IMG/VR virus record: IMGVR_UViG_3300033984_000473
Span: 27,393-91,392 of that record
Length of the DNA: 64,000 nt
Reading direction: 5' to 3' (one strand)
Source: a virus
Shown: piece by piece, positions 38,733 through 61,870 of the stretch
How the letters are laid out: each line of letters begins with the position of its first letter
Numbering within the stretch: the stretch's first letter is position 1
Made by a program: the position numbers and the translations under genes
The notes under the pieces: model-generated
The model's input: the letters and a program-made list of their open reading frames with translations, nothing else
Databases searched by the model: none
Told to the model about the DNA's origin: nothing

Positions 38733-38778
38733 TGTTTTTTATTTTTTTTTTAATTATTTTTTGTTTATCTTTGTAGTG

Positions 38779-38850
38779 TACAAAATGAGATACGGGTCAC
38801 GGCAAGTGAGAGAGTAGACTCCGTCACGCCTATATGTTACCCAGTAAAAA
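38779..38850 (+). ncRNA. Two-hairpin small RNA, copy 1
   Basis: Promoter TATCTTTG at 38766-38773. Hairpin 1 GTGT/ATAC, then GGG, hairpin 2 TCAC/GTGA, then the invariant GAGTAGACTCC. No clear terminator. Plus strand. Confidence 0.65.
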
Positions 38851-38875
38851 ATTAACATAATATTAACATTTAAAA

Positions 38876-38907
38876 TTTGGTAGTATGGTTTAAATGTCTT
38901 ATATTTG
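38876..38907 (+). promoter_or_regulatory. Host-type promoter
   Basis: TTTG (38876-38879), 20 nt, TATATTTG (38900-38907). For 38931-39206. Confidence 0.85.
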
Positions 38908-38930
38908 CCCTATCAATTAAAACACACATT

Positions 38931-39206
38931 ATGACACAATTTGAACAAGCACAAGAGCAAGTAAAGAATGGAGAATTGAGAACGCCTAATGTTTCGGCTG
39001 GGGCAAAGACTGTTGACTATTTTGGTTATCAGTTATCTGTTCACAAATTCAATTTATCGTTGATGGCAAAGGGAATGTCTTTCAAGGGTATTACGTTTAC
39101 ACAGATTAAAAAGTATTACGGATTGAAAGGTAGAAGTGCGAAAGATTGCCTACCGCAATTCCTTGAGATTGTCGAGAAATACAAACAAGAACTAAACCCT
39201 CAATAG
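38931..39206 (+). CDS. Hypothetical protein (91 aa)
   Basis: Starts MTQFEQAQEQ at 38931, placed by promoter and conserved AAAACACACATT leader. Basic C-terminal half (IKKYYGLKGRSAKDCLPQF). One of three plus-strand genes in the block. Unknown function. Confidence 0.7.
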   Translation: MTQFEQAQEQVKNGELRTPNVSAGAKTVDYFGYQLSVHKFNLSLMAKGMSFKGITFTQIKKYYGLKGRSAKDCLPQFLEIVEKYKQELNPQ

Positions 39207-39213
39207 AGGGTTT
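39194..39213. terminator. Terminator
   Basis: AAACCCTC/GAGGGTTT stem with T8 on plus. May also stop the opposing small RNA. Confidence 0.8.
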
Positions 39214-39214
39214 T

Positions 39215-39290
39215 TTTTATGGGTCTATGTACACAAATGTGTAGGACGGAGTCTACTCTTTCACTTGACGTGACCCGTTGCTCTTTCAAC
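39215..39290 (-). ncRNA. Two-hairpin small RNA, copy 2
   Basis: Minus strand. Hairpin 1 GTTG/CAAC, hairpin 2 TCAC/GTGA, invariant GAGTAGACTCC, then a TACACATTTGTGTA palindrome before the terminator. Confidence 0.7.
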
Positions 39291-39294
39291 ACTA

Positions 39295-39339
39295 CAAATA
39301 TAGAAAATAAAATCCACACTACCTAATATAATGTGGATT
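39295..39339 (-). promoter_or_regulatory. Fused terminator hairpin/promoter of small RNA 2
   Basis: Stem AATCCACA/TGTGGATT (39311-39339) covers the -33 TTAG (39323-39326). -7 TATATTTG at 39295-39302. Hairpin also ends the 39349 transcript. Confidence 0.75.
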
Positions 39340-39348
39340 TTTTTCAAT

Positions 39349-39528
39349 TTATTTTAGGCTTGTATCGAATAAGCATTTAAACCGATACCACATAGTTGTA
39401 AACCTAACTATGTTAAGGTTTTTGGTTGCAAAGGTTTTGATGTTTCTTTGGTATCTTAAAATGTCATAATAGCAAGGTATGATTGTAACGCTACCAATAG
39501 TAAGTCCGAATAGTTTCCAATTGTTCAT
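39349..39528 (-). CDS. Small basic membrane-associated protein (59 aa)
   Basis: Short ORF starting MNNWKLFGLT at 39528, 5 nt after the stop of 39534-39680. Hydrophobic first 20 residues, then basic and aromatic. Second gene of a two-gene unit. Confidence 0.55.
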   Translation of the reverse strand: MNNWKLFGLTIGSVTIIPCYYDILRYQRNIKTFATKNLNIVRFTTMWYRFKCLFDTSLK

Positions 39529-39533
39529 ATTTT

Positions 39534-39680
39534 CTATCTTTTTTTACGTTCTAATTTACGTCTTTCACGTCTCAATTCTTTACCACTTTTTGGTATTTCT
39601 AATTTGTCTGGGTGTTGAGCGGGATTAGTAATGTTATATGTTGGATAATTTTCAAATGGGCTTTTACCTTCATTTCTCAT
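39534..39680 (-). CDS. Small Lys/Arg-rich protein (48 aa)
   Basis: Starts MRNEGKSPFEN and ends with a highly basic RRERRKLERKKR-type tail, as in nucleic-acid-binding peptides. Own promoter. Confidence 0.6.
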   Translation of the reverse strand: MRNEGKSPFENYPTYNITNPAQHPDKLEIPKSGKELRRERRKLERKKR

Positions 39681-39704
39681 AGTGTATGTCTTTTAATTAA
39701 AAAA

Positions 39705-39736
39705 CAAAGATAAGGATAAGTTTTCACTTATCCAAA
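39705..39736 (-). promoter_or_regulatory. Fused hairpin/promoter
   Basis: GGATAAG/CTTATCC stem (39714-39733) lies between -33 TTTG (39733-39736) and -7 TATCTTTG (39705-39712), spacing 20. For 39534. Confidence 0.75.
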
Positions 39737-39753
39737 TCTTTTTGTATTTATTT

Positions 39754-40203
39754 TTAAACTTTTTTGAATATCAAAAGTCTTGCACTATCAAATACGTTTG
39801 AACATTTACCGCATGAACTTGCTTTTTTTGGCGTTTTGAATTTTCTATGAACGTGTGAACATTTAGGACAAACCGCTTCAAGTGTACCCTTAACAATGAT
39901 TGTGTTATTTTCGGTATAACAACGATTTCCATCACAACCGATTGACAATGCTTTACGTTTCCACGTGCTATCGTGTCCGTGTCCGTGTCCAACCAATGCG
40001 TGAGCAATTTCGTGTAGTATTGTATTTTTTACTCTTGCTTCGTCATTCAATAGTATCAAATGTTTTGATAAGCTGATACGTCTGTAAGTGTAGTTGCAAC
40101 AGCCAAATCTACGCTTTGCGTTATCTAAATTAAACATCCAATTATCAAGTCCGTGTTCTTTCATTAATTTTTCCCCTAATTCACTTGCTTTAACTAATTC
40201 CAT
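39754..40203 (-). CDS. sprT: SprT-like zinc metallopeptidase
   Basis: A 149-residue protein. HEIAHAL (His64, Glu65, His68) is the SprT active site, and CPKC with SSCGKC form the C-terminal zinc ribbon of the SprT family, related to the DNA-protein crosslink protease SPRTN. The catalytic residues are intact. A role in removing DNA-bound proteins or in inactivating host factors is possible. Leader is of the small-RNA-like class (TAGTGTTGAA...TAACC). Confidence 0.85.
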   Translation of the reverse strand: MELVKASELGEKLMKEHGLDNWMFNLDNAKRRFGCCNYTYRRISLSKHLILLNDEARVKNTILHEIAHALVGHGHGHDSTWKRKALSIGCDGNRCYTENNTIIVKGTLEAVCPKCSHVHRKFKTPKKASSCGKCSNVFDSARLLIFKKV

Positions 40204-40239
40204 AATTTGTGTTTTTAATTGGTTACTTATTCAACACTA

Positions 40240-40284
40240 CAAATATAATGATAATAATCCACACTACCAAATATAATGTGGATT
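40240..40284 (-). promoter_or_regulatory. Fused hairpin/promoter
   Basis: Stem AATCCACA/TGTGGATT (40256-40284). TTTG 40268-40271, TATATTTG 40240-40247. Ends 40298 gene, starts sprT. Confidence 0.8.
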
Positions 40285-40297
40285 ATTTTCAATTATT

Positions 40298-40561
40298 TTA
40301 TAAATTATCTGCAAGTTCACAAAGTTGATGTGGTGTGAGTACGCTATAACAATAGGAATAGCCTTGATTATCGAGTATTGAATCGTTTACCAATTCATCG
40401 AGCCATCTACTACCAACGAGGTTAAACGCTAATTCATCGGGAACTTTAATACAAGGTTGCCCCGTGTGTTTGCTTTTCTTTTTTGATTTCCTTGCTTTAA
40501 GGATAAGACGCATTTCAATCTTATTGATAAACGTTTCGAGTTGTTGAGTTTTCGTTGTCAT
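40298..40561 (-). CDS. Hypothetical protein (87 aa)
   Basis: Starts MTTKTQQLET at 40561, 2 nt after the stop of 40564-40686 (coupled). Lys-rich centre and helical ends. Function unknown. Confidence 0.65.
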   Translation of the reverse strand: MTTKTQQLETFINKIEMRLILKARKSKKKSKHTGQPCIKVPDELAFNLVGSRWLDELVNDSILDNQGYSYCYSVLTPHQLCELADNL

Positions 40562-40563
40562 AA

Positions 40564-40686
40564 TTATACGCATCTATGGTTGCTCCAGTATCTACGTTGT
40601 TGTCCACATCGTGAGGCACAACTTTGGCATAATAACCAAACAGAAAATAATACGATTGCTATTGCATAAGGTCTAAATGATTTCAT
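40564..40686 (-). CDS. Small secreted/lipoprotein-like peptide (40 aa)
   Basis: Short ORF MKSFRPYAIAIVLFSVW... with a signal-like hydrophobic core, Cys pairs near CQSC and an Arg/Gln-rich end. Own promoter, coupled to 40298. Confidence 0.6.
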   Translation of the reverse strand: MKSFRPYAIAIVLFSVWLLCQSCASRCGQQRRYWSNHRCV

Positions 40687-40712
40687 AATAAGTGTTTTAA
40701 TTGATTAGAGTA

Positions 40713-40744
40713 CAAATATAGTGAATTAGTTTGACACTACCAAA
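40713..40744 (-). promoter_or_regulatory. Host-type promoter
   Basis: TTTG 40741-40744, 20 nt, TATATTTG 40713-40720. For 40564/40298. Confidence 0.8.
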
Positions 40745-40923
40745 TTTTCATCTACTTTTTTTGCGTCAAGTATTAAAATAATTCCACACAAAGTGCCGAA
40801 CCCTAAAAACGTAAATAAACTACACATTAATTGGTCATTGGTTTCTGATACGAATATACCGATAAAGCCTAATATTTGACAAAAAAGTGTGATAAGAACA
40901 AAGATAAGATTTAATTTTTTCAT
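40726..40923 (-). CDS. Small two-helix membrane protein
   Basis: A 65-residue protein with hydrophobic segments at about 5-25 and 33-52 and a soluble tail. Its stop region overlaps the -33 of the next promoter. Function unknown. Confidence 0.65.
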   Translation of the reverse strand: MKKLNLIFVLITLFCQILGFIGIFVSETNDQLMCSLFTFLGFGTLCGIILILDAKKVDENLVVSN

Positions 40924-40949
40924 TGTGTTTGTTTTAATTGATTAGAGTA

Positions 40950-40981
40950 CAAATATAGGTATTAGTTTTGACATATCCTAA
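40950..40981 (-). promoter_or_regulatory. Host-type promoter
   Basis: TTAG 40978-40981, 20 nt, TATATTTG 40950-40957. For 40726. Confidence 0.8.
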
Positions 40982-40984
40982 TTT

Positions 40985-41081
40985 ATTTGCAATTATTTTT
41001 CGTGTGTGTTGGCTGCTGACGTATGTGCGTGTTGGAGTCTACTCTTTTGATATTCCCATATCAACCCGTTACTCTTTCAAC
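40985..41081 (-). ncRNA. Two-hairpin small RNA, copy 3
   Basis: Minus strand. Hairpin 1 GTTG/TAAC. Hairpin 2 is enlarged and different in sequence, TTGATAT/ATATCAA, but in the same place. Invariant AGAGTAGACTCC follows. No obvious terminator. Confidence 0.65.
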
Positions 41082-41085
41082 ACTA

Positions 41086-41130
41086 CAAATATAAGAAAAA
41101 GAAATGACACTACCAAACGATAGTGCCATT
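41086..41130 (-). promoter_or_regulatory. Fused hairpin/promoter of small RNA 3
   Basis: Stem AATGGCACTA/TAGTGTCATT with one mismatch (41103-41130). TTTG 41114-41117, TATATTTG 41086-41093. Confidence 0.75.
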
Positions 41131-41134
41131 ATTT

Positions 41135-41320
41135 TTAAATTAATTTCATTTCAAATCCGTAATGACAAAAGCCAGTGATATTTGAAATTTCGTCTGAAAC
41201 AAAATCATCAATGTCTTGTTCTTCTACGATGTCGCTTGGCACTTCGATTTCAAATTCAACAGGTAAGTCTACTACTTCTCCGTCTGTATCGAATTTAACA
41301 TTTGTAACGATTGCTTTCAT
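41135..41320 (-). CDS. Hypothetical acidic protein (61 aa)
   Basis: Acidic, Val/Asp/Glu-rich small protein with two likely beta strands. No family. Own promoter. Confidence 0.6.
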   Translation of the reverse strand: MKAIVTNVKFDTDGEVVDLPVEFEIEVPSDIVEEQDIDDFVSDEISNITGFCHYGFEMKLI

Positions 41321-41346
41321 AATGCTAGTATTAATTGATTAGAGTA

Positions 41347-41391
41347 CAAATATAAGATAAAAAATCCACACTACCTAATATAATGTGGATT
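41347..41391 (-). promoter_or_regulatory. Fused hairpin/promoter
   Basis: Stem AATCCACA/TGTGGATT (41363-41391). TTAG 41375-41378, TATATTTG 41347-41354. For 41135. Confidence 0.8.
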
Positions 41392-41405
41392 AATTTTAAT
41401 TTATT

Positions 41406-41669
41406 TTAGTCAACTATTCCTATCAATAATTTGTCTGTGTAACGTCTACCTTTATTCAAGTCGTGTGCTATTCCGACAAGTACGCCATACAACGTATCTT
41501 TTATAGGCAAATCGGGATAGTCCATTTGTAACATTTCGATTGTGGTTTCTGCAACGTACTTGCACGTATCTTTATTTCCATAACCCCAATTCTCGCAATA
41601 CCCAACCCTACGAATAAGGTCTGCATAAGATATAGGATAATAACCATTTTGAATTTTTGACTTTGCCAT
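41406..41669 (-). CDS. Hypothetical protein (87 aa)
   Basis: Aromatic-rich start (NGYYPISYADL), two Cys, helical centre with TIEMLQMDYPDL. Unknown. Confidence 0.65.
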   Translation of the reverse strand: MAKSKIQNGYYPISYADLIRRVGYCENWGYGNKDTCKYVAETTIEMLQMDYPDLPIKDTLYGVLVGIAHDLNKGRRYTDKLLIGIVD

Positions 41670-41689
41670 AGTGTGTTTTGATTAGAGTA

Positions 41690-41737
41690 CAAATATAGGT
41701 AAAAAAAAATAACCTACCAAATATTTGATAGGTTATT
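41690..41737 (-). promoter_or_regulatory. Fused hairpin/promoter
   Basis: Stem AATAACCTA/TAGGTTATT (41708-41737), T9 after it. TTTG 41718-41721, TATATTTG 41690-41697. For 41406. Confidence 0.8.
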
Positions 41738-41748
41738 TTTAATTTATT

Positions 41749-42036
41749 TTATTCTTCCCAAAACATTATCGTTCCAGCATCGTTCCATTCTGCCCACCAG
41801 CCGTGTTTTCTCAATAGCTTCATAAACTCGTTGTGAACTCCGAACTCGTATTTTGTGTAGTTTTCGGTGTAGTAACTGAATAGGTGCAACCCATCTTTTG
41901 CTTCGTCTCCGTTCTCTCCAGAACTCCAAATTCCGCCTTTAGAACCATTGAACTCCTCGGTTGTTCTCATAAACAAATTTGGATACTTTGCTTCGATTGC
42001 TTTCATCATTGCTTTTCTTGTACTTGCCATAATCAT
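41749..42036 (-). CDS. Hypothetical protein (95 aa)
   Basis: Trp/Phe-rich soluble protein (HGWWAEWNDAGTIMFWEE end). Start could be the first or third codon. The leader folds as GTTGC/GCAAC. Unknown function. Confidence 0.65.
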   Translation of the reverse strand: MIMASTRKAMMKAIEAKYPNLFMRTTEEFNGSKGGIWSSGENGDEAKDGLHLFSYYTENYTKYEFGVHNEFMKLLRKHGWWAEWNDAGTIMFWEE

Positions 42037-42068
42037 AGTGTATTGGTGGTTGCTTCATTGCAACAGTA

Positions 42069-42113
42069 CAAATATAGGTATAATAATCCACACTACCAAA
42101 TGTAATGTGAATT
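42069..42113 (-). promoter_or_regulatory. Fused hairpin/promoter
   Basis: Stem AATTCACA/TGTGGATT with one mismatch (42085-42113). TTTG 42097-42100, TATATTTG 42069-42076. Confidence 0.75.
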
Positions 42114-42127
42114 ATTTTCAATTATTT

Positions 42128-42310
42128 TTAAACTTTTTTTCGTAGTTTCAAATCTTTGATTACCTTTGCAACCATATCTTGCACTTCAAACTCGCTTTGA
42201 TTATCAGTATCGGTGCAATCGGGAACGTACCCCAATTCGATTAGTTTGTTGGTAATTGTGATACCAATTTCTTGTCGTTCATCTCGGTCTAACTTTCTTG
42301 TCTTAGCCAT
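42128..42310 (-). CDS. Hypothetical protein (60 aa)
   Basis: Charged helical protein with basic ends (MAKTRKLDRDER; LKLRKKV). Unknown. Confidence 0.6.
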   Translation of the reverse strand: MAKTRKLDRDERQEIGITITNKLIELGYVPDCTDTDNQSEFEVQDMVAKVIKDLKLRKKV

Positions 42311-42336
42311 TGTGTATGTTTTAATTGATTAGAGTA

Positions 42337-42368
42337 CAAAGATAAGGATAAGTTTTCACTTATCCAAA
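42337..42368 (-). promoter_or_regulatory. Fused hairpin/promoter
   Basis: GGATAAG/CTTATCC stem (42346-42365) between TTTG 42365-42368 and TATCTTTG 42337-42344. For 42128. Confidence 0.75.
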
Positions 42369-42385
42369 TCTTTTACCAATTATTT

Positions 42386-42586
42386 TTAGTCTTTCTCAAA
42401 AGATTTTACCCAAAAGATAGGTAGGTCTCCGTATTCTTGTTTGAATTGTACAACCCCTTTTTCTTGTGCGTCTTTGTCGCTGGTCGCTTGGATTGTAAGT
42501 CCATACTTTTGGTGGTCATCGCCTTGTTCTCTGCCATAGTGGTCGTTAGGGTCGATAGACATAATTGTAACGTGATAACTTTTCAT
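42386..42586 (-). CDS. Hypothetical protein (66 aa)
   Basis: Starts MKSYHVTIMS at 42586. The longer frame would read through the promoter. His/Asp-rich centre (DPNDHYGREQGDDHQKYG). Unknown. Confidence 0.6.
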   Translation of the reverse strand: MKSYHVTIMSIDPNDHYGREQGDDHQKYGLTIQATSDKDAQEKGVVQFKQEYGDLPIFWVKSFEKD

Positions 42587-42613
42587 AAGATAGTGTGTTA
42601 ATTGATTAGAGTA

Positions 42614-42645
42614 CAAATATAGAACATTCTTTTTTAATATCCTAA
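42614..42645 (-). promoter_or_regulatory. Host-type promoter
   Basis: TTAG 42642-42645, 20 nt, TATATTTG 42614-42621. For 42386. Confidence 0.8.
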
Positions 42646-42690
42646 TGAATTTCATTTTTTTTTAAACTTTTTTTACCTTATCTTTGTAGT

Positions 42691-42790
42691 GTTGAAAGGG
42701 TCACGACAAGTGAAAGAGTAGACTCCGACACGTCTATATGCGAACTGCTCCCGACAAGGCACAAAAAAAGAGGGACACAACTCCCTCTTT
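42691..42790 (+). ncRNA. Two-hairpin small RNA, copy 4
   Basis: Promoter TATCTTTG at 42679-42686. Hairpin 1 is reduced, hairpin 2 is TCAC/GTGA, then AGAGTAGACTCC. Ends in a GAGGGA/TCCCTC terminator (42767-42790). Confidence 0.7.
42767..42790. terminator. Terminator
   Basis: GAGGGA/TCCCTC stem with A and T runs on both sides. Confidence 0.75.
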
Positions 42791-42829
42791 CCCCACGTTA
42801 ATTGCTTAACGTTTCACCAATTAAATATA

Positions 42830-43024
42830 TTATTCCATTCCGTATTTATTACATTTTTTCTTTGTCTTAAACTCAAATGTGGGTGCTAACATTCCACCCC
42901 AAAAGATAAAACAAACTACAAACCCTTTAAAAAACATTTCCCAAGTTGATGGCATACCACCAAATGCACTTGTTAATGATGCGAAAAATATAACTACTAA
43001 TAATACTGATAAATTCTTTGACAT
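42830..43024 (-). CDS. Small membrane protein (64 aa)
   Basis: Starts MSKNLSVLLV at 43024 after the promoter. Two hydrophobic segments (5-22, 33-50) and a basic, Cys-containing tail. Confidence 0.65.
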   Translation of the reverse strand: MSKNLSVLLVVIFFASLTSAFGGMPSTWEMFFKGFVVCFIFWGGMLAPTFEFKTKKKCNKYGME

Positions 43025-43048
43025 AATGTTTGTGTTTTGATTAGAGTA

Positions 43049-43080
43049 CAAATATAAGATTTTAATTTGACATATCCTAA
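43049..43080 (-). promoter_or_regulatory. Host-type promoter
   Basis: TTAG 43077-43080, 20 nt, TATATTTG 43049-43056. For 42830. Confidence 0.8.
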
Positions 43081-43239
43081 TTAATATCTAAAAACTTTCG
43101 GTCTTGTTCTATTTTTTAAACCCACTTCTGAACACTTCATACATTGTTGTTTTCCATCATTGTGTTTTACAATAACAATATCAAAACCTTGATGTAATAC
43201 TTCAACTTGTGTTTGAGTTCCAACGATTATAACTTTCAT
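43081..43239 (-). CDS. Small CxxC protein (52 aa)
   Basis: Short ORF MKVIIVGTQT..., beta-rich with a CMKC pair near residue 34 and a basic end (NRTRPKVFRY). Own promoter. Single CxxC, so it could bind metal as a dimer. Confidence 0.6.
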   Translation of the reverse strand: MKVIIVGTQTQVEVLHQGFDIVIVKHNDGKQQCMKCSEVGLKNRTRPKVFRY

Positions 43240-43329
43240 AGTGTGTTTTTTGATTAAGTAATAACCGAGTGGGGATTGCTAGTCGGTTGTTAGTCCGTGC
43301 GTTCCAACTCTACCTCGATTATTACACTA

Positions 43330-43361
43330 CAAATATAAGACTTTAATTTGATATAACCTAA
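43330..43361 (-). promoter_or_regulatory. Host-type promoter
   Basis: TTAG 43358-43361, 20 nt, TATATTTG 43330-43337. For 43081. The ~90-nt leader holds no ORF. Confidence 0.75.
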
Positions 43362-43372
43362 TTTATTTTGAA

Positions 43373-43672
43373 TTATTTTCCAATTCTTTTTCTGTGCATT
43401 GAACTTGGGTGCGTGTTGTCTGCTTTGCTTTCAAAACAATATGTAGGCATACCGCTCATTGAGTGTAAATCTGTCAATATGATTATGTACCCCTCGGTCA
43501 AACATCGTTTAAGATTTTCATTCATTTTAAACATTTTGATTTGTGGGAACTTTTTAGCAAATGCTTGTAAGTCGTCATCATTTTCAACTATGTATCTTTC
43601 AATTTCAACTTCTCCCGATTGTGGACTTGTATAAACGCCCCATTTTAAATCTTTGTGTTTTACTACTAACAT
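43373..43672 (-). CDS. Hypothetical protein (99 aa)
   Basis: Alternating beta/alpha pattern (WGVYTSPQSGEVEIERYIV, AFAKKFPQIKMF), Cys/His near the end. Unknown. Confidence 0.65.
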   Translation of the reverse strand: MLVVKHKDLKWGVYTSPQSGEVEIERYIVENDDDLQAFAKKFPQIKMFKMNENLKRCLTEGYIIILTDLHSMSGMPTYCFESKADNTHPSSMHRKRIGK

Positions 43673-43696
43673 AATCTATGTGTTTTGATTAGAGTA

Positions 43697-43745
43697 CAAA
43701 TATAGGTAAAAAAAATAAGACTACCAAATAAATGATAGTCTTATT
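43697..43745 (-). promoter_or_regulatory. Fused hairpin/promoter
   Basis: Stem AATAAGACTA/TAGTCTTATT (43714-43745), T8 after it. TTTG 43725-43728, TATATTTG 43697-43704. For 43373. Confidence 0.85.
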
Positions 43746-43750
43746 TTAAA

Positions 43751-43993
43751 TTATTCTAAACTTGTTCCCTCAAAATCATACTCATATTGAATATGTGGAT
43801 ATTGTTTATCCAAATATTTGTGTAGTCTATCTACACTTCTAAATCTTTTAACAATTTCTTTATCTTGCCACGAATCTAAAAATACATATTCTTTGATTAT
43901 AGCAACATAACCACCTTTGAATATTTTACCTTTATCGGGTATTGCCAAAACATTATCGGTCAAAACATTTTCTCTTAATATAAACTCTCTCAT
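43751..43993 (-). CDS. Hypothetical protein (80 aa)
   Basis: Mixed alpha/beta, aromatic and charged. The C-terminus is acidic (YEYDFEGTSLE). Unknown. Confidence 0.65.
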   Translation of the reverse strand: MREFILRENVLTDNVLAIPDKGKIFKGGYVAIIKEYVFLDSWQDKEIVKRFRSVDRLHKYLDKQYPHIQYEYDFEGTSLE

Positions 43994-44020
43994 TGTCTAT
44001 TGTTTTAATTGATTAGAGTA

Positions 44021-44069
44021 CAAATATAGGTAAAAAAAATAAGACTACCAAATAAATGATAGTCTTATT
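44021..44069 (-). promoter_or_regulatory. Fused hairpin/promoter
   Basis: Stem AATAAGACTA/TAGTCTTATT (44038-44069). TTTG 44049-44052, TATATTTG 44021-44028. For 43751. Confidence 0.85.
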
Positions 44070-44079
44070 TTAATTATTT

Positions 44080-44634
44080 TTATTCTGCCGCCCACCCAAA
44101 GAAAACGAACTCGCCCGAACTTTCCGTAGTTGCTGACTTGTAGCGTATTGTTGCCACCGAACTACCACCACCTACAATACGTTTTTCTAAATGAATACGT
44201 GTAGTTTTTTTGGTTTTTTCAGTATGACTTCTTGCAATCTTAACCGCATCGCCTTTGGTTTTTTTCGCCCCTACTTCGTTGTCGTCCCAATCGGTTACAA
44301 CATAAACAAGTTCCCATTTTTTTGTACCTTTGGTTACAATGTGGTCAACTTGGCTCTTAACCTTATTCTCATTGGCTTTAGGTTCTTTGGTACAAATACC
44401 CCACGCATCGTCCCATTTTGAGCAATGATTTTCGATAGCATCATTGATAAATTCAGATAGTGATTTGCCACTTGCTTTGAATTTTTTAGTAGCATCAAAA
44501 ACGCCACGTGTTGTACTAATTGTGCCATTGTAGGTATCGTTGCCGTATTCCTCAATTGCATCGCTTACTGCCTCTTTGTATGCCTCTTGCATACTAAATC
44601 CTTTTTGTCTTTGACTGAAACTTGATGCTCCCAT
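44080..44634 (-). CDS. Conserved phage hypothetical protein (184 aa)
   Basis: Starts MGASSFSQRQKG and has AYKEAVSDAIEEYGNDTYNGTIS near the N-terminus, a pattern I have seen in other phage and plasmid small proteins without known function. Two Cys (HCSKW...GICTKE), then a Lys/Thr-rich beta half. Confidence 0.65.
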   Translation of the reverse strand: MGASSFSQRQKGFSMQEAYKEAVSDAIEEYGNDTYNGTISTTRGVFDATKKFKASGKSLSEFINDAIENHCSKWDDAWGICTKEPKANENKVKSQVDHIVTKGTKKWELVYVVTDWDDNEVGAKKTKGDAVKIARSHTEKTKKTTRIHLEKRIVGGGSSVATIRYKSATTESSGEFVFFGWAAE

Positions 44635-45469: not shown

Positions 45470-45524
45470 TAAATTTGTAGTTATTTTATTTGTTTATTAA
45501 TTTTCTTTTGTCTATCTTTGTAGT

Positions 45525-45625
45525 GTTGAAAGAGCAACGGGTCATGACAAATGAAAGAGTAGACTCCGACACGCCTATATGCCACGTGAACCCCAAACAA
45601 AAAAAACCCTAGTAAGGGTTTCTTG
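45525..45625 (+). ncRNA. Two-hairpin small RNA, copy 5
   Basis: Promoter TTTG 45489-45492, 20 nt, TATCTTTG 45513-45520. Hairpin 1 GTTG/CAAC. Hairpin 2 is TCAT/ATGA, a paired change from TCAC/GTGA. Invariant GAGTAGACTCC. AAACCCT/AGGGTTT terminator (45604-45621). Confidence 0.75.
45604..45621. terminator. Terminator
   Basis: AAACCCT/AGGGTTT, overlaps the last codons of 45609-45806. Confidence 0.7.
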
Positions 45626-45806
45626 GTGTGTGTGTTTTGCCTGTGGTTATATCCACCCACTTTTGTTTTGATTCTTTTTTGGCTAGAGCTTCAACGCTTT
45701 TGATTTTGTCTTCTCCAGCTTGGGTTGCTTCAGCGTGTGTGTGACCGCATTTGATAGCGAAGTTGTAAGCTGATTTTCTTAAGATTTCTTGGACTCTTGC
45801 ATTCAT
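45609..45806 (-). CDS. Hypothetical protein (65 aa)
   Basis: Starts MNARVQEILRKSAYNFAIKCGHTHAEATQAGEDK-like helical region (His/Ala-rich), then Lys-rich. Stop codon lies inside the small RNA's terminator. Unknown. Confidence 0.6.
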   Translation of the reverse strand: MNARVQEILRKSAYNFAIKCGHTHAEATQAGEDKIKSVEALAKKESKQKWVDITTGKTHTPRNPY

Positions 45807-48030: not shown

Positions 48031-48085
48031 TAAAAAAGTGATTATTTTATTAGGTTATTAAAAAACTTTTTTCTATCTTTGTAGT

Positions 48086-48185
48086 GTTGAAAGAGCAACG
48101 GGTCACGGCAAGTGAGAGAGTAGACTCCGTCACACCCTATACTCACTTCAAGCCAAAAACAAAAAAAACCCTAATAGGGTTTTTA
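48086..48185 (+). ncRNA. Two-hairpin small RNA, copy 6
   Basis: Best-preserved copy. Promoter TTAG 48050-48053, 20 nt, TATCTTTG 48074-48081. Hairpin 1 GTTG/CAAC, GGG, hairpin 2 TCAC/GTGA, GAGTAGACTCC, then ACCC that can close with GGGT. Terminator 48166-48185. Confidence 0.75.
48166..48185. terminator. Terminator
   Basis: AAACCCT/AGGGTTT with T5 on plus and A8 upstream, so it works both ways. Confidence 0.8.
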
Positions 48186-48202
48186 GTTCCAGATAGTTTT
48201 AC

Positions 48203-49684: not shown

Positions 49685-49757
49685 TGGAACCGACAGGACT
49701 CGAACCTGTGACGTACTACGATGAAGCAGCTGCTCTAACCAACTGAGCTACAGAACC
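49685..49757 (-). tRNA. tRNA-Met-like (CAT) with unusual acceptor stem
   Basis: 73 nt. D-arm GCTCAGTTGGTTAGAGC and T-arm ACAGG-TTCGAGT-CCTGT are normal. The anticodon stem GCTGC/GTAGT has two G-U pairs around a 6-nt loop TTCATC instead of 7, with CAT in the expected place. Acceptor strands GGTTCTG and CGGTTCC mismatch at 3:70 and 4:69 (T-T twice). No CCA is encoded. Confidence 0.7.
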
Positions 49758-55966: not shown

Positions 55967-56152
55967 TTATTTTAAAATTAATGAATAAAATTCTCCCTCA
56001 ATCCACTCATTCCAACCCTCTTCCCAATCCGTTTCATCATAGTCAGTCCAACCACCACTTCTATCTCTATTTATTTCGTTTAAAATATCCGCTAGTGTCC
56101 ATTCTTGAATTTCGTTTGTTTCAAGTACCTTTATCTTATATGTTTCTACCAT
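55967..56152 (-). CDS. Hypothetical protein (61 aa)
   Basis: Acidic, Trp-rich (GWTDYDETDWEEGWNEWIEGEF). No own promoter, follows 56169 by 16 nt. Confidence 0.6.
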   Translation of the reverse strand: MVETYKIKVLETNEIQEWTLADILNEINRDRSGGWTDYDETDWEEGWNEWIEGEFYSLILK

Positions 56153-56168
56153 AGTGTTTTTAAATATT

Positions 56169-56459: not shown

Positions 56460-56484
56460 GATATACTGTGTTTTAATTAGAGTA

Positions 56485-56516
56485 CAAAGATAAGGATATG
56501 TTTTCACATATCCAAA
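56485..56516 (-). promoter_or_regulatory. Fused hairpin/promoter
   Basis: GGATATG/CATATCC stem (56494-56513). TTTG 56513-56516, TATCTTTG 56485-56492. For 56169. Confidence 0.75.
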
Positions 56517-56527
56517 TCTTTTTTGAT

Positions 56528-56902
56528 TTATTTTACAAATAGTTTATTCCCTATACTGTATATAAACCCAAACTTGTAACCGTCAGCGTTCACGCCATTG
56601 AATACCCAGTTCGGACATACTCTTGGATTATACGTTACAGCCTCGCCACCTAATCCGTATATCATATCTCGACAACGAATTTCCTCACATAGTATCCACG
56701 CACACACAACTTTCTCGCCACCCTCAAAAATCTTTTGAGCTGTCTTCTTGCCACTACGCAACTCACAATCAATGAAGTGCATTTGACAAACATCTGGGTG
56801 TACATACTGTACAACGCCATTCGGGTACTGTATTTTCCAGTGCATGAAATGTTTTCCAGCCCCTAAATGAAATCTTACCTTAAACCGTCTAACTCTTGCC
56901 AT
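56528..56902 (-). CDS. Hypothetical protein (124 aa)
   Basis: Basic start, Cys/His-rich (HPDVCQMHFIDCELRSGKK, ILCEEIRCRDM). Possible metal binding but no standard spacing. Unknown. Confidence 0.65.
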   Translation of the reverse strand: MARVRRFKVRFHLGAGKHFMHWKIQYPNGVVQYVHPDVCQMHFIDCELRSGKKTAQKIFEGGEKVVCAWILCEEIRCRDMIYGLGGEAVTYNPRVCPNWVFNGVNADGYKFGFIYSIGNKLFVK

Positions 56903-56926
56903 AATTACTGTGTTTTAATTAGAGTA

Positions 56927-56971
56927 CAAATATAGAAATAAAAAATGACATTACCAAATGATAATGCCATT
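56927..56971 (-). promoter_or_regulatory. Fused hairpin/promoter
   Basis: Stem AATGGCATTA/TAATGTCATT with one mismatch (56944-56971). TTTG 56955-56958, TATATTTG 56927-56934. For 56528. Confidence 0.8.
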
Positions 56972-56976
56972 ATTTT

Positions 56977-57210
56977 TTATAATCTTACTAATTCGTATTC
57001 ATCACTCACATTGTCGCCATATCCATTACCACTTAACCAGTCGAAAATTTCCTCTTGGCTATCAGTAAAATTCTCCAACGTCAAAGTAGTAATTCGTTTG
57101 GGTTCATTGTCGGTTATTTGATATACTGTAACATCTTTGTAACCTGTACACTCTTGGACATCATCAATATCCTGTACTTCTTTCTCGATAACATAATACA
57201 ATTTTTTCAT
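56977..57210 (-). CDS. Hypothetical acidic protein (77 aa)
   Basis: Beta/alpha small protein, acidic. Starts 2 nt after the stop of 57213, so coupled. Confidence 0.65.
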   Translation of the reverse strand: MKKLYYVIEKEVQDIDDVQECTGYKDVTVYQITDNEPKRITTLTLENFTDSQEEIFDWLSGNGYGDNVSDEYELVRL

Positions 57211-57212
57211 AA

Positions 57213-57539
57213 CTATTCTAAATTGGTTTCCATTAATTCACAAATCGTAATACGGTCTTGAATACTTCCCAAATCAGATAACTTCAATAGGTGTCTTACA
57301 AAGCTACCGTCAGCCTCAACTACCAGTATTCCGTCCTGTGTTACTTTTAGTGGGTGTACATCAAATACGCCCCCTGTAATATCGTTTCTTACCTCTAGGT
57401 AATCATCGGGTGTATCGTTTTCCAAATCCACTTCATCAAAGATAGTGATTTCGGATTGCTTGGTTAATAATTCAGAAAAGTAGTTCGCAACTTCACTTTC
57501 TAAATTGTCTAAATCATTGTTGAAATTTTTGCTTGACAT
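57213..57539 (-). CDS. Hypothetical acidic protein (108 aa)
   Basis: Asn/Asp/Glu-rich helical start, then beta half (GGVFDVHPLKVTQDGILVVEADG). First gene of a coupled pair. Confidence 0.65.
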   Translation of the reverse strand: MSSKNFNNDLDNLESEVANYFSELLTKQSEITIFDEVDLENDTPDDYLEVRNDITGGVFDVHPLKVTQDGILVVEADGSFVRHLLKLSDLGSIQDRITICELMETNLE

Positions 57540-57562
57540 AATATATGTTTTTAATTAGAGTA

Positions 57563-57594
57563 CAAATATAAGAATAAAAATCCACACTACCAAA
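57563..57594 (-). promoter_or_regulatory. Host-type promoter
   Basis: TTTG 57591-57594, 20 nt, TATATTTG 57563-57570. For 57213/56977. Confidence 0.8.
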
Positions 57595-57600
57595 TATTTT

Positions 57601-57828
57601 TTAAAGTATTTCTAAAAATACTCGTTCAATTTGAGTAACTCGGTTTTCATTGTTCCAGTCAACAAATTCGTCAACATCGCAATTGTCTAAATCATGTTCT
57701 TCTAATACATGAAATTCATTCCAACTTTCTTTCACTTCCTCATCAAAGTTAGCAACCTCGCCAACATTGGTTACTTTAACAATACCTAAGTCTTCCCCAC
57801 TATCGCTGTCTGTTAATTGATAATACAT
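57601..57828 (-). CDS. Hypothetical acidic protein (75 aa)
   Basis: Very acidic (EEHDLDNCDVDEFVDW). Such small acidic proteins in early phage regions may act as DNA mimics. No direct evidence here. Confidence 0.6.
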   Translation of the reverse strand: MYYQLTDSDSGEDLGIVKVTNVGEVANFDEEVKESWNEFHVLEEHDLDNCDVDEFVDWNNENRVTQIERVFLEIL

Positions 57829-57854
57829 AATATATGTTTTAATTGATTAGAGTA

Positions 57855-57899
57855 CAAATATAAGAATAAAAATCCACACTACCAAAAATAATGTGGATT
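57855..57899 (-). promoter_or_regulatory. Fused hairpin/promoter
   Basis: Stem AATCCACA/TGTGGATT (57871-57899). TTTG 57883-57886, TATATTTG 57855-57862. For 57601. Confidence 0.85.
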
Positions 57900-57913
57900 A
57901 TTTTCAATTATTT

Positions 57914-58252
57914 TTAATAAGCCCCAATACTCCCATAAGATATTGGGTAACCTTTGTTGCCCCACATAACATTTCCGTCAACGTACTCCTGTTTTATATC
58001 AGTCAATACCGTATCTAAATAATATTCGTAAGCAATTCTTAAACTATCAGCTTTGGTAGTCTGTGGTGGATAAAATGCAAATAGGTTTTCTCTAGGGTGT
58101 CCTACAAATAGAATGTAGATTTTATTACGCCCACGTCCGTATTCGTGTGCGTTTACTCGGTTCTTAAAGCCTGTGAATGACAAAGGCTTTCCGTTCATAA
58201 TAAGCCCCAACCACGTTAATCTTTCGTTAACTTCTTCTAATGGTAAATTCAT
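57914..58252 (-). CDS. Hypothetical protein (112 aa)
   Basis: Aromatic-rich, mixed. Starts 2 nt after the stop of 58255 (coupled). Unknown. Confidence 0.65.
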   Translation of the reverse strand: MNLPLEEVNERLTWLGLIMNGKPLSFTGFKNRVNAHEYGRGRNKIYILFVGHPRENLFAFYPPQTTKADSLRIAYEYYLDTVLTDIKQEYVDGNVMWGNKGYPISYGSIGAY

Positions 58253-58254
58253 AA

Positions 58255-58515
58255 TTATTGGATTTCAAGGTTATTCCAAATCATATCCCCATTGTCGTCA
58301 AGGATTTCCATTGTGGTTTGATAATCGTTTTCTTCGATTGTGATAAACTCTACGGTGTCTTCCAAAAGAGTAGCCCCAATACCTAAATAATCTGCAACGC
58401 TGTCGCTGTCAGTAAGTTCGCCACTTTGTAACTTTGCTTTTACGTCTTCCATTTGTTCCACGCTATCAAATTCGATACGTTCCCAAACTGTAACTTTTAC
58501 ATCTAAACTTGCCAT
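58255..58515 (-). CDS. Hypothetical acidic protein (86 aa)
   Basis: Beta start (LDVKVTVWERIEFDSVEQ) then acidic. It shares this style with 58585 and 57213. Unknown. Confidence 0.65.
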   Translation of the reverse strand: MASLDVKVTVWERIEFDSVEQMEDVKAKLQSGELTDSDSVADYLGIGATLLEDTVEFITIEENDYQTTMEILDDNGDMIWNNLEIQ

Positions 58516-58541
58516 AATTTCTTTGTGTTTTAATTAGAGTA

Positions 58542-58573
58542 CAAATATAGGTAATTAAAATGTAACTACCAAA
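58542..58573 (-). promoter_or_regulatory. Host-type promoter
   Basis: TTTG 58570-58573, 20 nt, TATATTTG 58542-58549. For 58255/57914. Confidence 0.8.
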
Positions 58574-58584
58574 TTTTTATTGGA

Positions 58585-58911
58585 TTATTTCCACAAACAA
58601 CATTCCTGTAAAAAATCGTATTGTTTATCAGTCAATTCTCCAACCGTGTCAAACTCAAACTTTTCGTTGAAATAGTTTTCGTCCTCAAGTTCAACCTTGG
58701 TAGTTACCGTAATATCCAATATAGCACCTATAAGACTTTCATAGCCCATACCACTATCAATACTGCCGTCCTTTAAAGCAACATTTGCTTTTTCTAACAA
58801 TTCCTCTTTGGTATCAGCCGTGAACTCAATCGTTGGATACGAACCTGTACCACCGCCCCAATAATTCCCCAATACAAAACCTGTGGCTTTGAATGATTTT
58901 TTCTTTTCCAT
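58585..58911 (-). CDS. Hypothetical protein (108 aa)
   Basis: Gly-rich start (VLGNYWGGGTGSYPT), then acidic alpha/beta. Unknown. Confidence 0.65.
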   Translation of the reverse strand: MEKKKSFKATGFVLGNYWGGGTGSYPTIEFTADTKEELLEKANVALKDGSIDSGMGYESLIGAILDITVTTKVELEDENYFNEKFEFDTVGELTDKQYDFLQECCLWK

Positions 58912-58936
58912 AATGATATACTTTTTATTTCTTGTA

Positions 58937-58968
58937 CAAATATAAGACTATTATTCTAATCCACCTAA
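58937..58968 (-). promoter_or_regulatory. Host-type promoter
   Basis: TTAG 58965-58968, 20 nt, TATATTTG 58937-58944. For 58585. Divergent from small RNA 7. Confidence 0.8.
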
Positions 58969-59045
58969 CAAAATGTGAATTATTTTTTATTTATTTTTCT
59001 GCTGTTTTATTTGGTAGTGTCAAAACTATTCCCTATCTTTGTAGT

Positions 59046-59160
59046 GTTGAAAACAACGGGCGAACCCTAGCAAGGTGGAAGAGTAGACTCCGTCCTACCT
59101 TATACTCAAATAAAAAAATTTCAAAAAAAAATGCCCTACCATTTCTGATAGGGCTAATTT
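59046..59160 (+). ncRNA. Two-hairpin small RNA, copy 7
   Basis: Promoter TTTG 59010-59013, 20 nt, TATCTTTG 59034-59041. Hairpin 1 GTTG/CAAC with AAAA loop. Hairpin 2 is ACC/GGT, different sequence in the same place. Invariant GAGTAGACTCC. Terminator GCCCTA/TAGGGC (59133-59160). Confidence 0.75.
59133..59160. terminator. Terminator
   Basis: GCCCTA/TAGGGC stem with A8 before and T-rich after. Confidence 0.7.
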
Positions 59161-59165
59161 TTATT

Positions 59166-59525
59166 TTAGCATTCGGCTTCAAACTCGCATTGTCCGTTTT
59201 CTTTTAGATAATCTCGAATTTGTCGCCCAAGCCCCAAGTCAGCATAATCGCTTAATTCAGCTTTTGAAATTCCAGCTTCCTCTAATTGCTTGTCATTGTA
59301 GCCGTTTTTCTCTTTAAAGAAATTGTCAATAATTCCTAACTTGTCGCCTAGGCTTTCCTCAATGTTTTTGATTTCTTCCTCAACTCCTTCCAAATCTTCC
59401 TCTTGAAAATTGTAGTTAAGAGTTTCGGGTTGAAACCCTGTTACTCCAAACCTGTCAGCCGCACTGCTACTTTGAACAGCAAACCAAAATTTTCCCTCGA
59501 TGTCGCCACTGTAATACCTACCCAT
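59166..59525 (-). CDS. Conserved phage hypothetical protein (119 aa)
   Basis: Starts MGRYYSGDIEGKFWFAVQ, a widespread start in phage small proteins. The rest is strongly acidic and helical. Function unknown. Confidence 0.7.
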   Translation of the reverse strand: MGRYYSGDIEGKFWFAVQSSSAADRFGVTGFQPETLNYNFQEEDLEGVEEEIKNIEESLGDKLGIIDNFFKEKNGYNDKQLEEAGISKAELSDYADLGLGRQIRDYLKENGQCEFEAEC

Positions 59526-59562
59526 AATTTCTAATTTTTAATGTGATTATTAATTTCTTTAG

Positions 59563-59607
59563 CAAAGATAGAAAAAATAATCCATACTACCAAATGTAAT
59601 ATGGATT
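59563..59607 (-). promoter_or_regulatory. Fused hairpin/promoter
   Basis: Stem AATCCATA/TATGGATT (59579-59607), another paired change. TTTG 59591-59594, TATCTTTG 59563-59570. For 59166. Confidence 0.85.
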
Positions 59608-59622
59608 ATTTTCAAATTATTT

Positions 59623-60504
59623 TTAAACCATTTCCAATACGCCACTTTTTCTAGCAACGAACTCCAAAGATTTTTGGTTCATTTTGTAACCACTACCCAA
59701 CATAATCGTTTCCAGTTTACCGTTTTCACGTTTCGGTGCAGATAATTCGTGTGTAGTGAATTTCGTAATACCACTATGCAAACCCCAAAGGTTAAGCCCT
59801 TTGTCATTAAATTCGCCCTCAATACAGTTGTACAACGTTTCCATTTTGTTAATGCTACGTGTACTCTTTTCCGACAATTCCTTTATACTTGTCAATTCCT
59901 TGTCAAACCCTAACAAATACTTAACCATTTCGTCAGCCAATTCTCTAGTACAATCCCTGTCAGCCAGTACGTTATATAGCTCAATTTGTTTAAGGCTACG
60001 GTTCAATGCAGTTTCAATCAAAAATGGAATTTCTTTGATACGGTGTTCAATACTAGCCGAGTGTCTAAATTTCGCTTCGCCTTGCTTATAGAACTTGAAA
60101 AACTGATTAGAACAGCTCATAGTAAAATCCCCAATACCAATAGACAATGAAGTACTACCGTCATTACTATCCAGTACTGTAATGAATTTTTTAATCCTGT
60201 CATGCCCTACAACGCCATCGCCAGTAATACCTAACTGTAAAAATACCTTGCGACCCTCATTCATAGAACCAGCTTTGGTTACAATCAAATCGTTACCAAA
60301 CGGTCTAATGCCTTGAAGCACCATATCAACGATTTCGTGGTTCTGTGATACTGTATAACCGTCCTTAACAGTATTGATACACTTGCCTAACTTGTCATTG
60401 AATAAACCAAAGTAACCACTAGGATTAAGGTTAGAATCAAATAACGGTCTTTTGCTAATGTTGAAGTCTAAACCGTTCGCTACTAAAATGTCTTGTGTGT
60501 TCAT
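59623..60504 (-). CDS. DUF932-family protein
   Basis: A 293-residue protein matching DUF932 (phage/plasmid-like protein): an early YTVSQNHEIVDMVL segment, GGRKVFLQL-like strand (EGRKVFLQLGI), SNDGSTSLSIGIGDFTMSCSNQF, and the HSASIEHRI helix. The family is often found in phages and plasmids near replication or recombination genes. The mechanism is unknown. The largest protein of the block. Confidence 0.82.
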   Translation of the reverse strand: MNTQDILVANGLDFNISKRPLFDSNLNPSGYFGLFNDKLGKCINTVKDGYTVSQNHEIVDMVLQGIRPFGNDLIVTKAGSMNEGRKVFLQLGITGDGVVGHDRIKKFITVLDSNDGSTSLSIGIGDFTMSCSNQFFKFYKQGEAKFRHSASIEHRIKEIPFLIETALNRSLKQIELYNVLADRDCTRELADEMVKYLLGFDKELTSIKELSEKSTRSINKMETLYNCIEGEFNDKGLNLWGLHSGITKFTTHELSAPKRENGKLETIMLGSGYKMNQKSLEFVARKSGVLEMV

Positions 60505-60532
60505 ATCTAAAATTGTTTAATTGATTAGAGTG

Positions 60533-60564
60533 CAAATATACAACCTTTATTTCATTCCACCAAA
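60533..60564 (-). promoter_or_regulatory. Host-type promoter
   Basis: TTTG 60561-60564, 20 nt, TATATTTG 60533-60540. For 59623. Confidence 0.8.
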
Positions 60565-60654
60565 TAAAAATGCAATTATTTTTAATTTATTTTTTTATGT
60601 AAAATAATCTATAAAAAATTAGGATATGTAAAAAACATTCCCTACCTTTGTACT

Positions 60655-60795
60655 GTAATTAAATTACGGGTCGCATAGGATGTGAAAGAGTAGACTCCAC
60701 CGTACCTTATACTCAAATAGCCAAATAGCCAAATACAAAAAACAAAAATGCAAAATAAACCTATAACTTAATATAAGCCTATTTCGCATTTTAAG
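60655..60795 (+). ncRNA. Two-hairpin small RNA, copy 8
   Basis: Promoter TTAG 60619-60622, 20 nt, TACCTTTG 60643-60650. Hairpin 1 GTAAT/ATTAC and hairpin 2 TCGCAT/ATGTGA both differ in sequence but stay paired. Invariant GAGTAGACTCC. A long AAATGC/GCATTT hairpin (60747-60795) may terminate it. Confidence 0.7.
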
Positions 60796-60812
60796 GTACT
60801 TTTAAAGGACGT

Positions 60813-61631
60813 TTATACCAATTCCAATTCCTTGGTAGGAACGCTATCATAAATAGCGTTAACCTTATCAAAAATAGCTTGGCTATCTTTGGCTGTTTCA
60901 ATTACAAAACCACTTGTAAAAGCAATTTTATTATCAGCACCTTTGCCTGTCATTTTTTTGTATTTTAAACCACAAATAACATTCTGTTTATCCAAAAATC
61001 GTAGGTCGTCATTATCAGCATTGATAACCTCAAAACCGTTATAAGTAGTAGGTAATTTGTCAAATACCATTGCTACATTAAAACCACGTTTCAATAATTC
61101 TAATGATTTAATATCATTCGTTTCAGAACGTGAAAAAGTCAAATGATAATTACTAGGTAACACTTTGTCAAAACGAAAATGATTTTTTGTATAATCATAA
61201 AATTGTACATTCGGGTACATTTCAAAAATGTTTTTAGTATTATTGTCAAATACTTTGTATTTTTCAAATGGCAAATCACTTGTACCATTTAAACGTATAG
61301 TAACAATAGCTTTGTCAGTATGTTTTTTTACCGCTTTGCCAATTTCCACATATAATTGGTTCATAAATTCAATACGACTACTTAAAAAGTATTCAGTTTT
61401 GGCAACCCTACCTTGCATAACATTACTATACATACCGCCAAAACCACTACCAACAAGGCAACTATCAGCACAACCTTTACTTGCATGGCTACATACATTG
61501 ATACCTTTGCTATTGGCTGTAAAAGGCGACATATACATTATATAGGTCATATAACCTAATTTTTCTCCTTTTACTGTTTTCGCATTATTAGTACTTAATA
61601 ATGGTTTTCTTTTTACTACTTCTACATTCAT
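60813..61631 (-). CDS. GP88-like protein
   Basis: A 272-residue protein. The Cys pattern CSHASKGCADSCL near residue 47, followed by RVAKTEYFLSSRIEFM, fits the Gene product 88 family named after a mycobacteriophage gene. Later LTFSRSETNDIKSLELLKRGFNVA and the C-terminal CGLKYKKMTGKG fit too. The four Cys may bind metal. Role unknown. Confidence 0.8.
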   Translation of the reverse strand: MNVEVVKRKPLLSTNNAKTVKGEKLGYMTYIMYMSPFTANSKGINVCSHASKGCADSCLVGSGFGGMYSNVMQGRVAKTEYFLSSRIEFMNQLYVEIGKAVKKHTDKAIVTIRLNGTSDLPFEKYKVFDNNTKNIFEMYPNVQFYDYTKNHFRFDKVLPSNYHLTFSRSETNDIKSLELLKRGFNVAMVFDKLPTTYNGFEVINADNDDLRFLDKQNVICGLKYKKMTGKGADNKIAFTSGFVIETAKDSQAIFDKVNAIYDSVPTKELELV

Positions 61632-61659
61632 AACTAATTTGTTTTAATTGATTAGAGTG

Positions 61660-61690
61660 CAAATATACAACTATTATTTTAATATACAAG
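61660..61690 (-). promoter_or_regulatory. Host-type promoter
   Basis: CTTG 61687-61690, 19 nt, TATATTTG 61660-61667. For 60813. Confidence 0.7.
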
Positions 61691-61782
61691 TTTTTTTGTA
61701 ATTATTTTTAATATTTTTTTTATGTGTAAAATAATTCACTTTTTATTTGGTAGTGTCATTTATTATCACTACATTTGTACTG

Positions 61783-61870
61783 TTGAAATGAAACACCCAA
61801 AGCAAGATACCACAAATCTGAGAAGTAGACTCCGTCCTACCTTATATCCAAGTTATTTAGAACGAATATA
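61783..61870 (+). ncRNA. Two-hairpin small RNA, copy 9
   Basis: Promoter TTTG 61747-61750, 20 nt, TACATTTG 61771-61778. Hairpin 1 GTT/AAC, hairpin 2 AGAT/ATCT, invariant AAGTAGACTCC. The most diverged copy. No clear terminator. Confidence 0.6.

Follow-up and report, generated by a model that had tools for sequence, protein, structure and literature searches.

RESULTS

A cluster of nine small RNA loci in a T4-type phage

The DNA analyzed here is a stretch of 64,000 nucleotides (the window; positions 27,393 to 91,392 of IMG/VR record IMGVR_UViG_3300033984_000473) and comes from a virus record of 232,931 bp, labeled G000, with genes for a portal protein and a terminase of the T4 type. Among its closest annotated relatives by terminase is Flavobacterium phage immuto (about 30% identical). 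Nine intergenic loci clustered within one 23-kb region of the window carry the ten-base core AGTAGACTCC, and each is predicted to specify a structured RNA of about 75–120 nt. The sequence-only reading had placed nine such copies here, seven on the plus and two on the minus strand, and the count bore this out: exact matches to AGTAGACTCC were located at 38813, 42717, 45558, 48119, 59082, 60689, and 61824 on the plus strand and at 39248 and 41034 on the minus strand, whereas dinucleotide-preserving shuffles of the window yielded 0.04 matches on average and never nine. No other site in the window came closer to AGTAGACTCC than two mismatches, and a covariance model search of the whole 233-kb record returned nine copies, none of them outside the cluster.

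The RNAs share a layout of hairpin 1, GGG, hairpin 2, RAG, the core, and an RNCNYRY tail, usually followed by a T-rich or hairpin terminator. Copy 1 (38774–38856, plus; core 38813–38822; 69.3 bits; 3′ end uncertain) follows the promoter TATCTTTG at 38766–38773 and pairs GTGT with ATAC in hairpin 1 and TCAC with GTGA in hairpin 2. Copy 2 (39194–39293, minus; core 39248–39257; 73.7 bits) ends at a bidirectional terminator in common with the gene at 38877–39206, and copy 3 (40985–41084, minus; core 41034–41043; 56.8 bits; 3′ end uncertain) forms hairpin 2 from TTGATAT and ATATCAA around a GGGA loop. Copy 4 (42688–42791, plus; core 42717–42726; 54.6 bits) ends in a GAGGGA/TCCCTC hairpin and a T run. 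Copies 5 (45522–45627, plus; core 45558–45567; 79.2 bits) and 6 (48083–48187, plus; core 48119–48128; 71.2 bits) both follow TATCTTTG, at 45513–45520 and 48074–48081, and reach bidirectional terminators at 45601–45624 and 48164–48184, respectively. In copy 7 (59043–59165, plus; core 59082–59091; 34.4 bits), hairpin 2 is ACC/GGT, and a GCCCTA..TAGGGC hairpin and a T-rich stretch come after it. Copy 8 (60652–60730, plus; core 60689–60698; 36.6 bits; 3′ end uncertain) has GTAAT/ATTAC in hairpin 1 and TCGCAT/ATGTGA in hairpin 2. Copy 9 (61779–61860, plus; core 61824–61833; 19.3 bits, E = 2.6e-4; 3′ end uncertain) is a divergent subtype that reads GAGA-AGTAGACTCC and forms hairpin 2 from AGAT and ATCT.

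The shared layout that had been proposed stood overall, with two departures: the 3′ arm of hairpin 1 is deleted in copy 4, and copy 9 has no GGG. The further statement that hairpin 2 changes in nearly every copy was too strong, as five of the nine are near-identical (TCAY..RTGA) and a strong difference was seen in four (41034, 59082, 60689, and 61824).

Covariation of the two hairpins

Homologous sequences were collected by pattern scans of IMG/VR (three, plus one later), and matches were confirmed by the covariance models R1 and R2. The closing pair of hairpin 2 was standard in 77 of 79 distinct sequences (46 C-G, 30 U-A, and 1 U-G), compared with a mean of 59.6 and a maximum of 66 after partners were shuffled, and the third pair of hairpin 1 was standard in 51 of 68 (including 24 A-U, 14 U-A, 9 C-G, and 3 G-C), compared with 24.8 and a maximum of 38; because the sequences are related, these shuffle counts do not translate into probabilities. 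Pairs 4–6 of hairpin 2 also lay above all shuffles, and no other column pair tested came near the dependency shown by the closing pair of that hairpin. Kinship was addressed by a slid-register control: the ungapped 16-sequence alignment A8 gave a covariation score of 0.617 versus 0.282 ± 0.044 when shuffled, and its slid registers reached 0.07–0.144 at most. Orthologous positions of G000 and the carrier G001, a partial genome, also differ in a compensatory way: copy 5 reads GTTG..CAAC and G001 reads GTAC..GTAC, orthology being judged by the same downstream gene. Folding of single sequences was unremarkable for most window copies (z from +1.2 to −3.2), and the structural evidence is therefore the covariation across relatives. 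On this sequence evidence, in which covariation is decisive, both hairpins are real RNA helices.

Column-pair tests detected no third helix family-wide. Pairing of the GGG with CUCC was rejected because GTG, AGG, and AAG variants occur without a compensating change in the core. A long-range GUGUUG/CGACAC helix, which appeared in some single-sequence folds from the window, showed no family-wide covariation, and pairing of the tail with the body of the RNA left no consistent signal. In one clade (L087, L095, L104, L129, L162, and L171), hairpin 2 is preceded by GGGGG and the T-rich tail is followed by CCCCC, a pattern that suggests an additional long-range helix, confined to this clade, by which the RNA would be closed.

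Promoters, terminators, and neighboring genes

A TAnnTTTGTA element, the Bacteroidota-type promoter, precedes all nine copies, in accord with the earlier claim that each follows a good promoter, and every RNA starts 2–4 nt downstream of it. The same element precedes almost every small gene of the region. On the plus strand between 38 and 62.5 kb, nine promoter-like sites were present; seven drive RNAs of the family, and the two remaining lie at 45477, just 5′ of an RNA promoter, and at 62020. After the promoter, minus-strand genes read CTCTAATTAAAACAC-ATG or similar and the RNAs read hairpin 1, which also occurs in a few mRNAs, including upstream of two genes that end at 40203 and 45806. Terminator-like hairpins were found 3′ of five copies (39248, 42717, 45558, 48119, and 59082), in agreement with the observation that several end in a clear terminator, and the terminators of several copies are common to convergent genes. 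Family-wide, the downstream gene was convergent for 74 of 103 copies (72%), so that the orientation mostly opposite to the surrounding genes held well beyond the window; among the other 29, a promoter preceded the next gene in 22.

These arrangements bear on a cis-acting role, in which the RNA would be a leader (a riboswitch, an attenuator, or a put-like antiterminator) for the genes downstream. In phage HK022, transcripts open with the two hairpins of the put antiterminator RNA, which acts in cis on what lies downstream, and the present RNAs likewise begin with two hairpins right at the transcription start. Unlike put, they mostly face convergent genes, several have terminators in common with those genes, and a separate promoter stands before the next gene in most of the non-convergent cases. 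A cis-leader role is largely refuted, and we consider it very improbable.

The neighborhood of the copies in G000 is an accessory region rich in ORFans, where genes have promoters of their own, and no match was obtained when eight neighboring proteins were compared with defense systems. At many gene junctions between 39300 and 58600, terminator and promoter are fused: a terminator-like hairpin holds TTTGGTAG in its 3′ arm, and this sequence doubles as the −33 element for the TATATTTG promoter of the following gene. The minus-strand gene at 39754–40203 encodes a SprT-like metallopeptidase (PF10263, 2.6e-12) that is common to most of the RNA-bearing phages compared and has a match in Streptomyces phage Blueeyedbeauty.

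At the edge of the cluster, the sequence TGTTCCACGTGGAACA, which we take to be the parS consensus bound by ParB, occurs in two perfect copies 38 bp apart (62111–62126 and 62149–62164) and nowhere else in the 233-kb record, with 0 expected in the window. In another carrier, G009, a parS with one mismatch, at 77733, likewise directly borders the RNA cluster (78013–103707). The plus-strand segment 62022–62260 consists of a promoter, TACCTTTGTA, and about 240 nt without a long open reading frame (ORF), and it folds much better than its shuffles do (z of −4.8), partly due to pairing of the two parS palindromes; it may be a partition site or one more non-coding RNA. The parS pair, together with the multicopy, intergenic arrangement in one 23-kb cluster, fits a DNA-level element such as an origin, a packaging site, or a recombination site, in which case the conservation would not concern RNA at all. 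The compensatory changes in two hairpins, the fixed spacing to the promoter, and the lack of copies in the rest of the 233-kb record argue against such an element and make it a highly unlikely explanation.

The conserved segment and its repetition

The invariant segment AGUAGACUCC is predicted to be unpaired, and its essential part, U-R-GACUCC, is nearly fixed. Whole-record and divergent matches gave the changes that AGTAGACTCC tolerates: A to C or G at position 1, G to C or T at position 2, and A to G at position 4, with rare changes of C to T at position 9 or 10 and of G to A at position 5. Tail positions +1 to +8 differed among copies of one phage. Three RNAs of three phages (L045 3631+, L072 8532 in minus-strand index, and L370 146+) contain two units of hairpin and UAGACUCC, the second consisting of a strongly paired GCAAC..GUUGC hairpin followed immediately by the second UAGACUCC. 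Because these three RNAs repeat that combination, the functional unit is probably a hairpin presenting UAGACUCC. A coding role was rejected, in line with the earlier statement that no copy encodes a plausible peptide: any start codon in the GTA-GAC-TCC frame was found in only 24 of 93 copies (7 ATG), and variation at synonymous sites was lacking.

Search for a base-pairing partner

All nine TAGACTCC octamers in G000, both strands considered, are the RNAs themselves, and no complementary octamer was present elsewhere in that genome. Octamer pairing within G000 is excluded, and the phage genome is an unlikely target for base pairing. In eight sampled Bacteroidota host genomes, with phage RNAs excluded, the ten-base complement (AGTAGACTCC/GGAGTCTACT) occurred 10 times in total versus 28 for the reversed control, a rarity that perhaps reflects avoidance or codon usage. 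It was absent from three of the eight, and no exact ten-base target is therefore universal. Matches of 9 bp to ribosomal RNA (rRNA) stayed at chance level. Complementarity to 16S h42 (GUAGACUCC with GGAGUCUGC) was tried and rejected, as the exact site was present in one of three Bacteroidota rRNA loci and random queries did equally well.

These searches weigh on the idea of a multicopy antisense small RNA (sRNA), in which UAGACUCC and the variable tail would form a seed for host mRNAs or for a host sRNA and the tails would spread the copies over different targets, like FopS/GibS in Bacteroides. A precedent exists in the same phylum: FopS of Bacteroides thetaiotaomicron has 14 paralogues with sigma-ABfr promoters, its single-stranded seed is invariant, and it binds RbpB (PMC11697453). 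All evidence in the present analysis likewise has the core single-stranded, the tail varies within one phage, and most core substitutions at positions 3–10 (A to G and C to U), although small in number, would preserve pairing with the same partner. Against this stand the missing octamer in G000, the rarity and patchy presence of the ten-base complement in the host genomes, and the chance-level rRNA matches; moreover, a seed fixed across host orders would require a target that is equally fixed. On balance, we regard the antisense explanation as unlikely, though the strongest of the alternatives.

Distribution among phages and bacteria

The RNA was found in about 90 distinct IMG/VR contigs (our own count from locus lists, which include some near-duplicates), with 1–13 copies per record. 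Whole records contained nine copies in G000, six in the partial G001, 13 in G009, 13 in G010, and 5–6 in several phages of 119–348 kb. Among cultured phages, two copies were present in Tenacibaculum phage Larrie (18784–18836 and 19417–19470) and one clear copy each in Cellulophaga phages phiST (76446–76497) and phi13:1 (2423–2474), both of which also gave a weak match that proved to be without TAGACTCC when read. The megaphage LR745206 (634,780 bp) has one copy. The covariance model search of related phages that had been proposed as a check recovered the family in both IMG/VR contigs and cultured phages. Carriers range from 78 to 635 kb and belong to unrelated types (the T4-like G000, Cbastvirus phages, and the megaphage), and no match was detected in phages immuto, PTm1, crAss001, phi38:1, phi14:2, P12024L, BS-TP2, FpV21, and LR756508.

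When 84,980 species genomes were scanned with a core-plus-tail pattern, only five stretches matched. Two were chance matches; the other three, true copies, sit on contigs that had been binned as Bacteroidales, Mollicutes, and Prochlorococcus and are probably phage DNA. Among 296 Bacteroidota genomes, only two contained the RNA, each as a three-copy cluster on one contig. One of these contigs, 27 kb long, is full of small ORFs with only uncharacterized PHROG matches and is likely of phage origin. PLSDB plasmids gave no match to one representative of the family. The RNA is essentially absent from bacterial chromosomes and restricted to phages.

Such a distribution would suit an RNA cofactor of a phage-encoded protein (in a ribonucleoprotein, as a regulator, or as a structural component), and genes for a SprT-like protease and a thymidylate synthase co-occur with the RNA in most carriers compared. 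Not all have them, however, and phiST lacks both; no protein common to all carriers compared, the partial G001 among them, was found by BLAST, and the carriers are unrelated phage types. A phage-protein cofactor is accordingly rather improbable.

Comparison with known RNA families

In Rfam 15, no family scored above its gathering threshold, the only match in the window being a tRNA at 49685–49757, and a further Rfam search of the family gave chance-level matches only; the search that could have exposed a known family exposed none. A literature search with the letters of the core returned only unrelated matches, hantavirus termini and primers among them. The covariation, the homologues in many phages, the lack of coding potential, and the lack of an Rfam match together uphold the earlier proposal of a family of small structured non-coding RNAs.

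GOLLD, ROOL, and other ornate phage RNAs are also structured, non-coding, and found by comparative genomics (PMC12286853). GOLLD and ROOL are large, whereas the present RNAs are about 100 nt, multicopy, and simple in fold. Like FopS/GibS, the family has many paralogues per genome, own promoters of the sigma-ABfr type, and one invariant single-stranded segment; FopS, in contrast, is chromosomal, belongs to Bacteroidaceae, and places a 5′ single-stranded seed before a terminator hairpin (PMC11697453). In the phage family, two hairpins precede the conserved segment and the RNA is phage-encoded; Rfam returned no match, the inclusion of FopS in the release being unchecked. Judged from sequence, this is a new RNA family outside Rfam, nearest to FopS in working principle and not a FopS member.

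Racr and other phage decoy RNAs resemble the family in being phage-encoded, small, and, as proposed below for the family, able to occupy a host RNA-binding protein. Racrs copy the host CRISPR repeat. Here, unlike with Racr, no host RNA of the family's shape was found in the 296 Bacteroidota genomes, outside the two small clusters, or in the 84,980 species, which leaves nothing recognizable to mimic. The copies also differ from type III (ToxI-like) antitoxins in being dispersed, with two units in three RNAs only. A small self-cleaving ribozyme of a new type, an RNA antitoxin, or a CRISPR-repeat mimic might be expected to show short variable stems around an invariant core, as seen here, and yet there was no Rfam ribozyme match, no tandem array, and no host RNA to copy, so that the chance of any of the three is slight.

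DISCUSSION

A candidate trans-acting decoy

The reading that we tentatively prefer, at somewhat less than an even chance, is a dosage-amplified, trans-acting decoy or sponge of a conserved host RNA-binding factor. The nine genes would specify free-standing structured small RNAs, transcribed from host-type TAnnTTTG promoters; the hairpin would present UAGACUCC to the host factor; the many copies per phage (up to 13) and the RNAs with two units would raise the dosage; and, as the phage takes over the cell, the RNA would work in trans, titrating that factor as a decoy or sponge or else co-opting it. A role in trans on the host is argued for because the RNA is common to unrelated phages without a common protein, because it lies in an ORFan-rich accessory region among individually promoted genes, and because its copy number is amplified, as is, in some RNAs, the number of units. 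Dosage supplied in this way points to a decoy or sponge, and sequence recognition without a universal complementary site favors a protein as the partner.

Several points weigh against this decoy. The RNAs are predicted transcripts, and the host factor is a putative one. The true partner may be a phage-encoded protein too diverged for BLAST, and the SprT-like protease and thymidylate synthase are common to most, though not all, carriers. Antisense seeds of only 6–8 nt may be at work, and carriers with one or two copies would achieve only a weak dosage. Next after the decoy, at roughly one chance in four, we rank its main rival, an antisense sRNA that would pair through a short seed.

Implications for phage and host biology

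It is possible, and we put it forward with caution, that these RNAs, present in unrelated phages of Bacteroidota, constitute an undescribed class of phage RNA in which UAGACUCC would act as a multicopy inhibitor or hijacker of a phylum-wide host RNA-binding protein, a means of counter-defense or takeover without a described equivalent. A family present in about 90 viral contigs, in up to 13 copies each, and yet outside Rfam would mean that a strategy widespread among phages of an abundant host phylum had been overlooked. Since phiST, phi13:1, and Larrie have been isolated in culture, its function can be tested now. To our knowledge, most Bacteroidota have no Hfq, and because the RNA biology of this phylum is poorly mapped, identifying what UAGACUCC interacts with would probably bring to light an RNA-binding factor central to the host, or else a defense protein.

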